Shown here piece by piece: positions 3,078 through 25,011 of a stretch of 25,945 nt of DNA. The position numbers were made by a program, and so were the translations under genes. Position 1 is the stretch's first letter; every line of letters starts with the position of its first letter. This DNA is from a virus. The notes under the pieces were generated by a model. The model was not told the origin of the DNA. It worked only from the letters and a program-made list of their open reading frames with translations, and made no database searches. The stretch is taken from positions 1-25,945 of IMG/VR virus record IMGVR_UViG_3300009104_000112. One strand, 5' to 3'.

Positions 3078-3923
3078 ATGGCAGTCGGGACATCAAGTGT
3101 ATCAATAAGAGATATATATAACGAGATTAATTCTACAACTCATGGTGCCAATGTACAAATTGGTAGTGGTGTATCTATGTCAAGTCTTAGAACATCTTCA
3201 AATGCATATACTAGTGGGACATATTCAGGTGGAACACCAGATGTAGAAGCTGCACCAGATAGAATAAGTGAGTGGTTCAATTATACTCATGCAATAAGTA
3301 TGGGTAGTATAACTTATGCTGTTAGAATTGCAGCTGCACAAGCTAGTTGGGGTTTAAATCAAGAAGCAACTGATGATGTAGGACCTGGTGAAAATGGAAA
3401 CGCTGATGGTGGTATAGTATTATGGAGAACATATGATGGCTCTAACACATATATTAGAGCGAAAGGTCTTTCTTTAGGACAAAATGCAACAACAAATACA
3501 AGATCAATTTATGATACTAGTAGTTCAGCTTTAACTCTTGCAAACGCTGGTCAGGTAGTTATTACAATACCTGTGTCTAATGTTGCAATTACAGTTACCA
3601 ACCAACATAATTTTAGTGGTTCTGGATTATCTACACCTGTTACTAAAGCTGGTGGTACTCTTGGGGGAGGAGCTGGTGAAACTGTTCCTTCTCAAACTCC
3701 ACTTATTTCTTTGGGTGCTACAGCAGCAGAAACTGAATCACAACCTAACGGAGAAGGTTCTGATGATGATGAACACCAAGCTATTTTTAGAATTGAATTA
3801 CAAGCATCAAAATCAGGATATATAACTACTGCATTAAATGAAGGTGTTACTAATGGTGGTATTGTAATTGATTGTCATAATTCATCACAAGCAGATGAAG
3901 AAGAAGGCGGAGGAGGTGAATAA
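3078..3923 (+). CDS. Probable virion/tail structural protein, Gly/Ser/Thr-rich
   Basis: A 281-aa protein rich in Gly, Ser, Thr and Asn. Its N-terminal layout (MAVGTSSVSIRDIYNEIN, later an AAPDRISEWFNYTH segment) recalls tail-associated or fibre-like proteins of marine myophages. The middle is beta-rich and the end is acidic then glycine-rich (DEEEGGGGE). There is no signal peptide or membrane segment. A GAGGAG ribosome site lies about 11 nt upstream (3061-3066), inside the end of the kinase gene. It begins the run of structural-looking genes that continues to 9161. The exact virion role is not identifiable from the sequence alone. Confidence 0.7.
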   Translation: MAVGTSSVSIRDIYNEINSTTHGANVQIGSGVSMSSLRTSSNAYTSGTYSGGTPDVEAAPDRISEWFNYTHAISMGSITYAVRIAAAQASWGLNQEATDDVGPGENGNADGGIVLWRTYDGSNTYIRAKGLSLGQNATTNTRSIYDTSSSALTLANAGQVVITIPVSNVAITVTNQHNFSGSGLSTPVTKAGGTLGGGAGETVPSQTPLISLGATAAETESQPNGEGSDDDEHQAIFRIELQASKSGYITTALNEGVTNGGIVIDCHNSSQADEEEGGGGE

Positions 3924-19962: not shown

Positions 19963-20121
19963 ATGAAAGAAAAACTAATAGCAATTACACTATTCTTATT
20001 TGTGGGTATGTTGATGTATGTATCAATCAAATATCCACGATCACATCCTATCTATTTTGAAGGATACCCACCAATCTACTCACCCTACCCAACATATGGA
20101 GAACTACAATGGAAAAAATAA
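19963..20121 (+). CDS. Small membrane protein, 52 aa
   Basis: I place the start at ATG 19963 (MKEKLIAITLFLFVGML), which gives a basic start and one membrane span (residues 5-22), rather than the longer in-frame ORF from 19909 that overlaps the previous gene. The tail is Pro/Tyr-rich (YPRSHPIYFEGYPPIYSPYPTYG). It could be a holin-like or host-membrane protein, but nothing is diagnostic. A late-type promoter abuts the ATG. Overlaps the acyl carrier protein by 13 nt. Confidence 0.6.
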   Translation: MKEKLIAITLFLFVGMLMYVSIKYPRSHPIYFEGYPPIYSPYPTYGELQWKK

Positions 20122-20318
20122 TAGCAGAGATATTAGATATAGATCAAGATTCAATAAGAGATGAACATCACTTCATTAATGATCTGGGTGCTGACTCACT
20201 TAATATCGTTGAAATCGTCATGGGAATCGAAGAAGAATACGAAATCGAAATACCCGATGAAGATACAGAACAACTACAAACAGTAGGAGATTTAAGAAAT
20301 TATCTCAATGAGAACTAA
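20109..20318 (+). CDS. Acyl carrier protein
   Basis: A 69-aa acidic protein with the carrier-protein signature NDLGADSLNIVEIVM, in which Ser30 is the 4'-phosphopantetheine site. The rest aligns with bacterial AcpP: EKIIAEILDIDQDSI in helix I, EEEYEIEIPDEDTEQL in helix III, TVGDLRNYLNE in helix IV. It lacks the first 6-7 residues of E. coli AcpP's helix I. Carrier proteins hold growing fatty-acyl groups or donate them to lipids and regulators. It lies among tiny unknown genes, overlapping neighbours by 13 and 11 nt, and no fatty-acid enzyme is near. Function in infection is unknown. The host phosphopantetheinyl transferase would have to activate it. Confidence 0.9.
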   Translation: MEKIIAEILDIDQDSIRDEHHFINDLGADSLNIVEIVMGIEEEYEIEIPDEDTEQLQTVGDLRNYLNEN

Positions 20319-21233: not shown

Positions 21234-21602
21234 ATGGCCAAATCACCACGCAGAAAGACACCAAACCCTTATAGAGTCTATGTTACCTACCTACCAGACG
21301 ATCGCTATTACATAGGCTTTTCCCAGAAGTCCGATAAACTTTTTGAGAAGTACTATGGGTCATCAAAGGTCATCAAAGAGTACCCAGAACAAGATCAGTT
21401 ATACAAAGAAGTCATCGCAGAGTATGCCGTTAAGTCGCATGCTAAGATACAAGAGTTTCTATTACAGTGGAAGTACAGAGATGATGAAAAATGTATCAAT
21501 GATATGATACATTTAAGATTAAGACTAAGCTATTTAAAAGACTTCCAATATGTTGAGTGGCAACCGCGGGATACTGTGTCCGGAGCGGGGGAAACCCAAT
21601 AG
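21234..21602 (+). CDS. GIY-YIG-like protein
   Basis: A 122-aa protein with an N-terminal GIY-YIG-like pattern: YRVYVTYLPDDRYYIGFS (residues 13-30) then YYGSSKVIKEY. GIY-YIG nucleases use Y/Y and a following Arg and Glu; the usual YIG is YIG here (YYIGFS), but the first strand reads VYV rather than GIY and no sure catalytic Arg is placed. It could be an endonuclease of the phage homing or recombination type. Its last 15 codons lie in the GC-rich structured segment starting at 21556, so the end may have been altered by insertion. Confidence 0.5.
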   Translation: MAKSPRRKTPNPYRVYVTYLPDDRYYIGFSQKSDKLFEKYYGSSKVIKEYPEQDQLYKEVIAEYAVKSHAKIQEFLLQWKYRDDEKCINDMIHLRLRLSYLKDFQYVEWQPRDTVSGAGETQ

Positions 21603-21880
21603 GACAAAGGGTTTCCGGTCCTCGTCTAAGAACCGGCTCGCTGCCACTAGTATCTTTTATCCAAGTCATCAAACAACTCCCTTAAACCTCCGGAAATTAC
21701 CTCAGAGATATACTTCAGGCTGCCGCGGAGCGGCATACTGTTTTGCTAGCCCGCCTCCCTACCGGCCCGCCCCTATATAGAGAGTCAGACGCCTGCGGGT
21801 GGAAACAGGGTAGATGACAATCGAGTATGTTTCAGAGAAACTAAACGCTTTTTAAAATCCCTGTTCTAAAAATTTTTTTT
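21556..21880 (+). ncRNA. Candidate structured RNA of unknown class, GC-rich with a pseudoknot
   Basis: This stretch is far more GC-rich than anything near it and folds well on the plus strand. A 7-bp stem AGTGGCA/TGCCACT (21556-21562 and 21642-21648) encloses an H-type pseudoknot: GGAAACCC (21590-21597) pairs with GGGTTTCC (21609-21616), while the loop AGGAC (21601-21605) pairs with GTCCT (21618-21622). Downstream are the hairpin TGCCGC-GGA-GCGGCA (21721-21735), CTACC/GGTAG with CCGCCC/GGGTGG (21759-21813), and a closing stem AACAGGG/CCCTGTT before T-runs. It does not match tRNA, tmRNA, RNase P or group I signatures that I know. It overlaps the end of the GIY-YIG-like ORF. Apart from this RNA there is no supported gene between 21602 and 21900. 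Confidence 0.55.
21804..21880 (+). terminator. Terminator-like end of the structured RNA
   Basis: AACAGGG (21804-21810) pairs with CCCTGTT (21859-21865), with an inner hairpin GTTTC-AGA-GAAAC (21829-21841), followed 7 nt later by eight T (21873-21880) and another eight T (21886-21893). It lies between convergent genes, where rightward transcription should stop. The large loop is unusual for a simple intrinsic terminator. Confidence 0.5.
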
Positions 21881-21899
21881 GGGTATTTTTTTTGGGGGT

Positions 21900-22448
21900 T
21901 TATCTTTTGCTACAATTTGTACTACTTCTTGCTGATGTGTACACATTATAGTTGTTGTATACAACAATGGACATGATAAAATTTAATTGATTCATAATTT
22001 TTGGTGTGAGAGTTCCTTTTCTCAAATCGTATATAATTGCAGGTGAGAGAATTAGACTCTTGGTTACAAACACTTTATCTAGTGATGGAACTTTTCCCAT
22101 GATAGGATTCATTTCGTATACACAATCCCATTGTAATCCTTTATATGTAGAGTGAATGTCTAACATTTGTAGAGTGATGAATGTCAACCACTGGCCATTA
22201 GTTATAGGTTCTGAATATTGGAGTGAAGATATTGACCTTCTTACTTTTTCCCTTGACGAGTGTTCTATCAACCTAGGAGAATTTTCCATTCGGACATTGT
22301 TTATAAGTTCCTCATGATAACAACAAGTCAATCCCATCATAATTTTTTGTTTGTCCTTCGAGGGTAAGGTTGTCGGTATCGTCCAATCGGTTATTTCAGC
22401 AAGCAGGGCTGAGGGAAGAAGTAACAACAATATTAGAAGTTTCTTCAT
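21900..22448 (-). CDS. Secreted or membrane-anchored protein with signal peptide
   Basis: Minus-strand gene of 182 aa. Signal peptide MKKLLILLLLLPSALLA with probable cleavage before EITDW. The mature part has Cys42, Cys43 (MGLTCCYHEE) and a membrane-like C-terminal half: FITLQMLDIHSTYKGLQ, NPIMGKVPSLDKVFVTKSLI, then NFIMSIVVYNNYN. The pattern LDxxxTxxxLxxG..E-NP resembles small inner-membrane families (DUF5658-like), known in phages and bacteria; this is a weak match. The ATG overlaps the TGA of the 28-aa gene (ATGA), so it is the last gene of a leftward operon. Two transmembrane spans are likely. Confidence 0.7.
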   Translation of the reverse strand: MKKLLILLLLLPSALLAEITDWTIPTTLPSKDKQKIMMGLTCCYHEELINNVRMENSPRLIEHSSREKVRRSISSLQYSEPITNGQWLTFITLQMLDIHSTYKGLQWDCVYEMNPIMGKVPSLDKVFVTKSLILSPAIIYDLRKGTLTPKIMNQLNFIMSIVVYNNYNVYTSARSSTNCSKR

Positions 22449-22531
22449 TGTAAGGCTTTATTGAATACAAGAGCTATACACATTATTAGACTAATAAGGA
22501 TTAAGAAGTATTGTATTTCTTTTTTACTCAT
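22445..22531 (-). CDS. Tiny membrane protein, 28 aa
   Basis: ATG at 22531 (minus), TGA at 22447-22445. The product MSKKEIQYFLILISLIMC then IALVFNKALQ has one membrane span. It overlaps both neighbours by ATGA, which is strong support for translation. Function unknown; it lies in the leftward small-membrane-protein operon. Confidence 0.6.
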   Translation of the reverse strand: MSKKEIQYFLILISLIMCIALVFNKALQ

Positions 22532-22623
22532 AAGAAACTATTGATTAATGACATACACAGTGCTATGAAAGCCATACAGTATATGGGTGTCACGAAGGCT
22601 AAGAATAAGATTAATCTATTCAT
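22528..22623 (-). CDS. Tiny membrane protein, 31 aa
   Basis: ATG at 22623, TGA at 22530-22528 on the minus strand. The product MNRLILFLAFVTPIYCM then AFIALCMSLINSFL is almost wholly hydrophobic. It overlaps the upstream 65-aa gene and the downstream 28-aa gene by ATGA. Its start MNR resembles the six-codon leader MNRFLL at 12288, which may be chance. Confidence 0.6.
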   Translation of the reverse strand: MNRLILFLAFVTPIYCMAFIALCMSLINSFL

Positions 22624-22817
22624 ACTTGTGTTGTGTATTCGTCTTTACCAAAATCTCTATTCTGCCATCTTTCTAATAACCACTCATACCATCGTTCTAC
22701 ATATTCATCGCGAGTCATACGATTACCTGCTGCGGGTATAGTGAGATTTTCATCTTCATGATCTAACCACATCCTTGTACAAAACGAATCAAAGTCTGGT
22801 TGATTGTATGGACTCAT
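22620..22817 (-). CDS. Conserved small T4-like phage protein
   Basis: First gene of the leftward operon, 65 aa, starting MSPYNQPDFDSFCTRMWLDH and with MTRDEYVERWYEWLLERW near the end. I recognise this from marine T4-like cyanophages as a conserved small protein of unknown function; the N-terminus MSPYNQPDFDSF is the family's usual start, so the ATG at 22817 is firm even though only 6 nt separate it from a late promoter and no ribosome site fits. Acidic with several Trp. Function unknown. Confidence 0.7.
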   Translation of the reverse strand: MSPYNQPDFDSFCTRMWLDHEDENLTIPAAGNRMTRDEYVERWYEWLLERWQNRDFGKDEYTTQV

Positions 22818-22823
22818 AATATG

Positions 22824-22831
22824 TATTTATA
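22824..22831 (-). promoter_or_regulatory. T4-type late promoter TATAAATA (minus strand), nearly leaderless
   Basis: Exact octamer read on the minus strand, 6 nt before the ATG at 22817. It ends one base from the -35 box of a rightward sigma70-like promoter (22833), so two opposite promoters share the 77-bp gap between divergent genes. Confidence 0.75.
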
Positions 22832-22832
22832 C

Positions 22833-22862
22833 TTGACTCCGCCGGTACCCTTTTGTTACAAT
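22833..22862 (+). promoter_or_regulatory. Sigma70-like promoter (TTGACT-18-TACAAT), family B
   Basis: The 18-bp spacer CCGCCGGTACCCTTTTGT and the following ATGTATAT are the same as at 24720. It drives the 22895 operon with a leader of about 26 nt containing AAAGAGGT as ribosome site. GGTACC at its centre is a 6-bp palindrome. Confidence 0.75.
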
Positions 22863-22894
22863 GTATATGTAAGATGAAAAAAGAGGTAAAATAA

Positions 22895-23113: not shown

Positions 23114-23496
23114 TGGAAGGAATTAAATTAAACAAACTACCGTATGACGGTGAATTCTTGAATGCTCTAGGTGAACTAGAAATGAGAATTATCGAGGACT
23201 ACGAAGCGTTCATGGACAACGAGGACATGAGAGCCAAATTCAAAGACAACATCACATATCTACCAGGTAGCAAATATCTTAAAATTGTTACTGAAAATAG
23301 TGTGTGGGGATTCATCAATCTCAAAAACAAAAATTTCAAAGAAGGCGATCTTTTGAAAGCCGCAGGTTGGAGAGCACCAGCTCTTAACAAACCAAGAGGA
23401 AACATATTCGATCACAATTATGTGATCAACTGGACAGGTCCAAAATACTTATCTGGATACTGTGCAGGTGGCGAAAGAAACGGAGGACTTTTATAA
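23113..23496 (+). CDS. Hypothetical protein upstream of a methyltransferase
   Basis: A 127-aa soluble protein. The first half is acidic helical (LPYDGEFLNALGELEMRIIEDYE in part), the second is beta-rich with aromatic residues: KYLKIVTENSVWGFINLK, LLKAAGWRAPALNKPRGNIF and NWTGPKYLSGYC. I recall similar proteins next to phage DNA methyltransferases but cannot name the family. TAATG couplings at both ends tie it to the methyltransferase. Confidence 0.65.
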   Translation: MEGIKLNKLPYDGEFLNALGELEMRIIEDYEAFMDNEDMRAKFKDNITYLPGSKYLKIVTENSVWGFINLKNKNFKEGDLLKAAGWRAPALNKPRGNIFDHNYVINWTGPKYLSGYCAGGERNGGLL

Positions 23497-24044
23497 TGGC
23501 CGGAATTAAAGGACAACAACATAATCCTCTCATTGCAGAGAAGTACGCACACATGAACCCGAATGATGTTGTGTTTACACCAGATTGGTTAGCTGAACAG
23601 ATATGTTCCATGTTCGATATAACAGGAAATGTATTAGAACCCTGTAAAGGTGAAGGTGCGTTTTTAAAACATTTACCTAAGAATACAGAATGGTGTGAAA
23701 TAACCGAGGGTAAAAACTTTTACGATTATGAAAAAGAAGTCGATTGGATTGTAACAAATCCACCTTATTCAGACTTCAACAGATTTTTAACACATGCTTT
23801 CAGTTTAGCAGAGAATGTTGTGTTACTTGTTCCAGTTGCAAAACTGTTCAAGTCAATGGGAACATTAAAACAAATATTTGAGTATGGTAATTTTGTTGAG
23901 ATACACACATTACCAGCCAGCAAAGCAGGTTTCCCTTTTGGGTTTCCATGTGCTGTTTATTATATAAAGAAAGATTATGTTGGAACAACAACAATAAAAA
24001 TGTTAGAAGAAAATATAGGAACAGTGGAGGCGTTTTTAGAATGA
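23496..24044 (+). CDS. DNA adenine-N6-type methyltransferase
   Basis: A 182-aa class I SAM methyltransferase. Motif I is LEPCKGEGAFLKHLP (residues about 45-60, SAM binding), and the catalytic motif NPPY is at about 89-92 (VTNPPYSDFNRF), preceded by the acidic strand CEITEGKNF. It ends with a domain of strands (FVEIHTLPASKAGFPF, CAVYYIKKDYVG). It is shorter than stand-alone target-recognising enzymes, so it may modify a short site or lack a recognition domain. It would protect phage DNA from restriction or mark it. Overlaps neighbours by 1 and 4 nt. Confidence 0.8.
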   Translation: MAGIKGQQHNPLIAEKYAHMNPNDVVFTPDWLAEQICSMFDITGNVLEPCKGEGAFLKHLPKNTEWCEITEGKNFYDYEKEVDWIVTNPPYSDFNRFLTHAFSLAENVVLLVPVAKLFKSMGTLKQIFEYGNFVEIHTLPASKAGFPFGFPCAVYYIKKDYVGTTTIKMLEENIGTVEAFLE

Positions 24045-24540: not shown

Positions 24541-24719
24541 TGACAGCAAACGACACCAAGTCATTTTTAGATTTTGTCCGATATATGTATTCAGAGAATT
24601 GCAAAGAGCGATTTGAATTTGGTGAAAAACCTTTTCCAACAGCTAAAGCATATCTCAGGAAAAACAGAAATTTCCTAGAATCATTATACAGGCAAAAGAA
24701 AAAAGAATATCGAATATAG
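24540..24719 (+). CDS. Small hypothetical protein, 59 aa
   Basis: ATG 24540 overlaps the previous stop (TAATG); stop TAG 24717-24719. A basic, helical product (MTANDTKSFLDFVRYMY, then KERFEFGEKPFPTAKAYL and RKNRNFLESLYRQ). Translation from the coupled stop/start is plausible. No family recognised. Confidence 0.55.
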   Translation: MTANDTKSFLDFVRYMYSENCKERFEFGEKPFPTAKAYLRKNRNFLESLYRQKKKEYRI

Positions 24720-24749
24720 TTGAAACCGCCGGTACCCTTTTGTTATAAT
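24720..24749 (+). promoter_or_regulatory. Sigma70-like promoter (TTGAAA-18-TATAAT), family B
   Basis: Perfect -10 TATAAT at 24744-24749 with a TTGAAA -35 at 24720-24725. The spacer and downstream bases are the same as at 22833 (CCGCCGGTACCCTTTTGT and ATGTATAT). The transcript would start at about 24757, right before an ATG at 24760. Confidence 0.85.
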
Positions 24750-24759
24750 GTATATAGAA

Positions 24760-25011
24760 ATGAAAAAAGTATTTAAAATTATCATGAAATTAACCAACAT
24801 AGCCCGCAATTCACTATTGCGCCACCTTAGAGTTGGAGCCGAAAACTCATTTGTGATGGGTGAGCTTGAGGATTTGATAGGCAAGAGCCTTACATCCATA
24901 AAGCCGTGGGTAGGCAAAGTTGGTTTGATAACAATTCTAGATTCGAAGTCTGCGAGATGTCCTCTCAATCTAGAATTGAATTTCCACAGTTTTTTAAAAG
25001 GAGTAATATAA
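24760..25011 (+). CDS. Doubtful small ORF within a structured segment
   Basis: An 83-aa ORF (MKKVFKIIMKLTNIARNSLL, then LRVGAENSFVMGELEDLIG and VGLITILDSKSARCPLN), starting 3 nt after the predicted transcript start and ending TAATG onto the next gene. The stop/start overlap is typical of real genes here. Against it are rarer codons (CGC Arg, CCG), no ribosome site, and a set of stable hairpins that fits an RNA gene equally well. No family recognised. A long minus-strand ORF over the same stretch is also open, which suggests that composition alone keeps frames open. Confidence 0.3.
   Translation: MKKVFKIIMKLTNIARNSLLRHLRVGAENSFVMGELEDLIGKSLTSIKPWVGKVGLITILDSKSARCPLNLELNFHSFLKGVI
24805..24978 (+). 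ncRNA. Candidate structured RNA just downstream of a strong promoter
   Basis: Successive hairpins are seen: CGCAAT-TCACT-ATTGCG (24805-24821), GAGTT/AACTC (24830-24848), GGAT/ATCC enclosing AGGC-AAGA-GCCT (24870-24897), and a perfect 12-bp stem CAATTCTAGATT/AATCTAGAATTG (24932-24943 and 24967-24978) with a 23-nt loop. A T6 run follows at 24990. The ORF at 24760 covers the same bases, so one of the two is probably wrong. Confidence 0.4.

Follow-up and report, generated by a model that had tools for sequence, protein, structure and literature searches.

A GC-rich noncoding stretch at a convergent gene junction of a T4-like marine phage: a candidate structured 3′ untranslated region with a putative terminator

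Results

Gene neighbourhood and composition

A GC-rich stretch of about 310 bases lies where two operons of a phage converge. We read it, with a probability of about 0.5, as a lineage-specific structured 3′ untranslated region with a terminator, set between an operon on the plus strand and one on the minus strand that has a late-type promoter. A folded 3′ untranslated region ending in a terminator is the simplest reading, and what we describe is an uncharacterised transcript end rather than a proven RNA machine of a new kind. The window, meaning the whole DNA analysed, is a 25.9-kb IMG/VR fragment (25,945 nucleotides) whose ribonucleotide reductase is about 70% identical to counterparts in T4-like Synechococcus phages; judged by its sequence, the source is a T4-like marine phage. 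The order nrdA-nrdB-...-GIY-YIG-like ORF is common to the window and two related phage loci, L002 and L097. At the GC-rich stretch the plus-strand operon meets two convergent minus-strand ORFs:

21234–21602, plus strand: GIY-YIG-like ORF, 122 aa, its last 12 codons read from the GC-rich stretch
21566–21880, plus strand: GC-rich noncoding stretch, putative structured 3′ untranslated region or small RNA, from its composition; no Rfam match; counterpart at L097 3416–3766
21900–22448, minus strand: convergent ORF, 182 aa, with a signal-peptide-like start and a weak DUF5658 match
22620–22817, minus strand: convergent ORF, 65 aa, conserved in L096 and L097
22824–22831, minus strand: T4-type late promoter motif TATAAATA, just upstream of the 65-aa ORF
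22833–22862, plus strand: sigma-70-like early promoter TTGACT-18-TACAAT, with further copies at about 24720 and in relatives

The stretch at 21566–21880 has 50–55% GC, compared with 34% for the whole window, and its GC peak is the sharpest among the 94 loci compared, which bears out the original prediction of a GC-rich island. The two ORFs lying over it have no Pfam match, and the corresponding gap in L097 contains no ORF of at least 50 aa; on these two grounds a protein-coding reading was rejected. We found no recognisable protein frame across the region, and the stretch is noncoding in itself, with the end of the GIY-YIG-like ORF inside it.

The 3′ untranslated reading is supported by the convergent gene order together with the T-runs at the junction. 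It is also supported by the late-type motif for the opposing operon and by the early-type promoter at 22833, which opens the next plus-strand genes. The late motif occurs in the window at close to the chance number (6 versus 4.6 expected), and it is its position that makes the copy at 22824–22831 suggestive. With the 182-aa convergent ORF as bait, a direct search detected no relative.

Several other features of this neighbourhood were observed. The minus-strand late-type motif and the plus-strand early-type promoter stand back to back within 40 bases (22824–22862). The early-promoter module, TTGA..CCGCCGGTACCCTTTTGTTAYAATGTATAT, is repeated in the window at 22828–22892 and 24715–24779, the two copies being 85% identical, and it is conserved, spacer included, in relatives (L097 5531–5587 and about 5165; L095, L094 and L098). 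The phage encodes an acyl carrier protein (20109–20318; PP-binding, Pfam E 1e-14), and a short protein with an NPPYSDF motif at 23496–24044 resembles an adenine methyltransferase fragment.

The end of the GIY-YIG-like gene

The name GIY-YIG-like is a motif reading, because the Pfam match reaches only E=0.17, in one family member. IMG/VR contains over 300 relatives of this gene, and the best 80 of them were taken. Family homology ends at about residue 111 (base 21566), after ...EWQP, and the last 12 or so residues (PRDTVSGAGETQ) come from the GC-rich stretch, so that the stop at 21602 lies inside it as predicted. When C-termini were compared, the relatives stopped within about 2–15 codons of that point with other sequence; in those inspected, the gene that comes next starts at once or a short distance downstream. 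The window ORF continues for 12 codons inside the stretch, whereas in L097 a spacer of about 50 bases separates the stop codon from an ATACT motif. The junction has moved between the two, and we saw no sign of a mobile element.

The original prediction had also suggested a mobile insert. The composition jump, the replaced ORF tail and the absence of the stretch behind this gene in other lineages examined would all suit a recently acquired foreign or mobile insert (an intron, a MITE-like element or a host fragment). We nevertheless consider this very unlikely: L097 has a noncoding stretch at the same position, we found no terminal repeats around the stretch and no intron family in Rfam, and neither the rest of the fragment nor 50,697 phage records contained a copy. 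When IMG/VR and 84,980 genomes were probed with exact and gapped DNA patterns of the hairpin, 5′ and 3′ motifs, only the L097 contig, another contig from that phage and some unrelated matches came back. Searching 31 whole records with both the window and the L097 stretches gave nothing convincing. The comparison of C-termini proposed with the prediction showed an ORF tail that leaves its family.

A search of the whole window with Rfam 15 gave no match at the curated cut-off, and below it 21450–21950 gave only chance-level matches; relatives searched with both thresholds gave none. The predicted lack of a known RNA class was upheld, and the ribozyme that had been offered as one possibility found no positive support. 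Neither ARAGORN nor Rfam found a tRNA or tmRNA, and the window has no tRNA genes. A likeness to RNase P, group I introns or tmRNA, seen by eye in the 3′ part, was dropped as no model supported it. A group I or group II intron was likewise rejected: Rfam gave no core match, and the gene family stops so soon after the junction, within a few codons, that hardly any second exon is left to join.

Folding of the 5′ domain

Over its whole length the stretch has a folding energy ordinary for its composition (z −0.10; 43 of 100 shuffles as good), as has the other strand (z −0.71), and 7-bp inverted repeats are in modest excess (5 versus 1.85 expected). An ordinary fold favours a possible but less probable alternative, that the island is only a terminator and spacer, with hairpins and T-runs stopping polymerase at the convergent junction and the shape or product of the RNA being irrelevant. 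However, the 5′ domain gives a more stable fold than its shuffles do (z −2.9 for 21570–21660; z −2.2 for 21556–21649), and about 310 bases at 50–55% GC in a 34% GC fragment exceed what a spacer needs.

All stems named in the original prediction are present (AGTGGCA/TGCCACT, an 8-bp stem, AGGAC/GTCCT and AACAGGG/CCCTGTT), and the structural features are:

21556–21562/21642–21648, plus strand: predicted outer stem AGTGGCA/TGCCACT, a real 7-bp inverted repeat
21568–21576/21648–21656, plus strand: proposed closing helix GGGATACTG/TAGTATCTT, from the minimum-energy fold of 21540–21660
21590–21597/21609–21616 (21590–21622 with flank), plus strand: 8-bp hairpin GGAAACCC/GGGTTTCC, from the sequence
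21804–21880, plus strand: terminator-like end, AACAGGG (21804–21810) with CCCTGTT (21859–21865), then CTAAAAATTTTTTTT, from the sequence and similarity to L097

The hairpin loop AGGAC (21601–21605) is complementary to the 3′ flank GTCCT (21618–21622), and a hairpin with such a complement is rarer than chance: when the stretch was dinucleotide-shuffled, 3 of 2000 versions had one. Because the hairpin had been picked from 26 kb, the real surprise is smaller than this ratio. In related phage DNA the pattern turned up 26 times in 1.75 Mb, or about once per 67 kb. In an H-type pseudoknot the loops must span the grooves, and one base is too short for an 8-bp stem. Both helices exist here, but the crossing loop in the drawn pseudoknot is the single base G21617. 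Since such a linker cannot span the stem, the 8-bp stem and AGGAC/GTCCT are probably alternative pairings, and the H-type pseudoknot of the original prediction was not confirmed. No counterpart of AGGAC/GTCCT was found at the aligned place in L097 or L002, the two sequences compared.

The predicted outer stem is real as an inverted repeat. Its 5′ arm consists of the E-W-Q codons of the GIY-YIG-like ORF and it crosses a better stem, 21568–21576/21648–21656 (GATACTG/TAGTATC), which makes it a poor candidate; no counterpart was seen at the aligned place in L097. It is probably not a functional closing helix. The better stem can be lengthened by GTG/CAC with one bulge. Finding stems by eye in a GC island overstates structure.

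Comparison with related loci

Of the related phage loci that we examined, L097 alone carries a noncoding stretch of comparable length at the same position (3416–3766). The same gene lies upstream there, followed by a gap of about 500 noncoding bases and then by a gene with its own promoter. L097 shares its contig with L207 and L111, and L110 and L227 form a second contig, identical over the part compared.

Aligned at full length, the window and L097 stretches rank 1 of 20,654 segments, although similarity is low, and their global score of 57 was reached in 0 of 500 block shuffles (19.6 ± 9.2). On its own, the 5′ part is matched better by an unrelated coding segment of L097 than by its counterpart, and the 3′ part alone ranks seventh. 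As the 5′ part fails on its own, the case for homology is carried by the full-length alignment, the 3′ end and synteny, and the two stretches are probably related. L002, the closest locus by its GIY-YIG-like gene (75%), has about 75 bases that resemble L097 (score 48, against a mean of 19 and a maximum of 31 in shuffles); by these scores the L002 and L097 pieces are certainly related, and a relation between the window and L002 is unproven. The gene arrangement around the L097 gap, the rank and shuffle results for its stretch, and the L097-type bases of L002 support the 3′ untranslated reading. Against it, the middle 100 bases are not conserved between the window and L097, as might be expected of a spacer no less than of an RNA. 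The better match of the 5′ part to a coding segment, a held-out model that misses the window (below) and the unusual geometry of the terminator stem also weigh against it. The terminator-and-spacer alternative also gains from L002, where only 116 bases lie between the two genes, and from the further terminator-like hairpins in the L097 gap.

Pairing was compared across the same loci. In L097, a single relative, 7 of the 8 aligned pairs of the proposed closing helix can still form, one of them through a double change; mean retention over all 266 possible stems is 73%. For the 5′ hairpin, 81.5% of pairs are kept across three sequences with two double changes, no more than in shuffles (110 of 500). 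A first impression of a 5′ motif shared by the window with L097 and L002 was dropped, because a held-out model of the 5′ element built from L097 and L002 did not recover the window. The three-sequence model of this element finds its own members, one chance match in a coding frame and two weaker ones.

We considered whether the window, L097 and L002 could be diverged members of a new class of phage trans-acting RNA or ribozyme with a defined fold. In its favour are the lack of an Rfam match at any threshold tried, the largely kept helix in L097, and a hairpin with loop-flank complementarity in L097 (3603 ff.), rare (2 of 2000 shuffles) like that of the window. However, the L097 hairpin lies in the non-conserved middle and not at the corresponding place, the helix counts stay within shuffles and the held-out model fails, so we regard this class as unlikely. 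Similarly doubtful is a new class of structured noncoding RNA at operon 3′ ends in this T4-like marine lineage, in which the hairpin and the loop-to-flank pairings would be mutually exclusive and act as a switch. Little evidence points to a new functional RNA class.

At L097 3590–3650 lies an A/T-rich hairpin of 13 bp (AAAAAGTTAACCA/TGGTTAACTTTTT), its loop CTGAAG complementary to CTTCAG just 3′; folding of 3597–3637 gives z −5.4.

The 3′ end

The predicted terminator-like end is present in the sequence, with the AACAGGG/CCCTGTT stem and two T8 runs (21873–21880 and 21886–21893). This stem encloses 48 bases, because of which a terminator consensus scan makes no call at 21804–21880, and 7 bases separate it from the T-run. 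The last conserved part of the L097 gap is the same terminator-like end: the 42 bases at 21839–21880 are 83% identical to L097 3726–3766 (E=2e-4 in about 1 Mb), a similarity that is in part a product of A/T runs. A transcription terminator at the end of the stretch is probable.

Discussion

We propose that the stretch would form the 3′ untranslated end of the plus-strand operon closed by the GIY-YIG-like gene. Having passed the ORF, polymerase would transcribe about 310 bases of hairpin-forming, GC-rich sequence and would stop at the AACAGGG/CCCTGTT stem and T-runs, before meeting transcription of the minus-strand operon (21900–22817) from its late-type promoter. The folded 5′ domain would probably protect the 3′ end, and a stable small RNA, which might conceivably act in trans, may remain after processing. 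Operon 3′ junctions are lineage-specific and fast-changing, as seen here. As an operon 3′ end the stretch is ordinary; if it were to give a stable phage RNA, it would be a further entry among the few noncoding RNAs of marine T4-like phages, most of which have been reported from Rfam searches.

GOLLD and ROOL RNAs are phage-linked. They are large, ornate, many-helix noncoding RNAs (PMC12286853), whereas the stretch has no Rfam match and its window has no tRNA genes. Reported cyanophage RNAs are wcaG, manA, PhotoRC-II, glnA, abiF and CfrI (PMC9964418, PMC2864571). Like the stretch, the first five are structured elements in T4-like marine phages; unlike it, they have Rfam models, which it does not match (PMC2864571, PMC9964418). 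In addition, manA and wcaG are described as 5′ untranslated elements or are tied to regulated genes (PMC2864571, PMC9964418), whereas the stretch is a 3′ end. Compared with intrinsic-terminator 3′ untranslated regions and 3′-UTR-derived small RNAs of bacteria and phages, the stretch is unusually long (about 310 bases) and GC-rich for its genome, and its terminal stem departs from a textbook intrinsic terminator by enclosing 48 bases and standing apart from the T-run. It is like them in its position behind the last gene of an operon, in its fold, and in its stem followed by T-runs.
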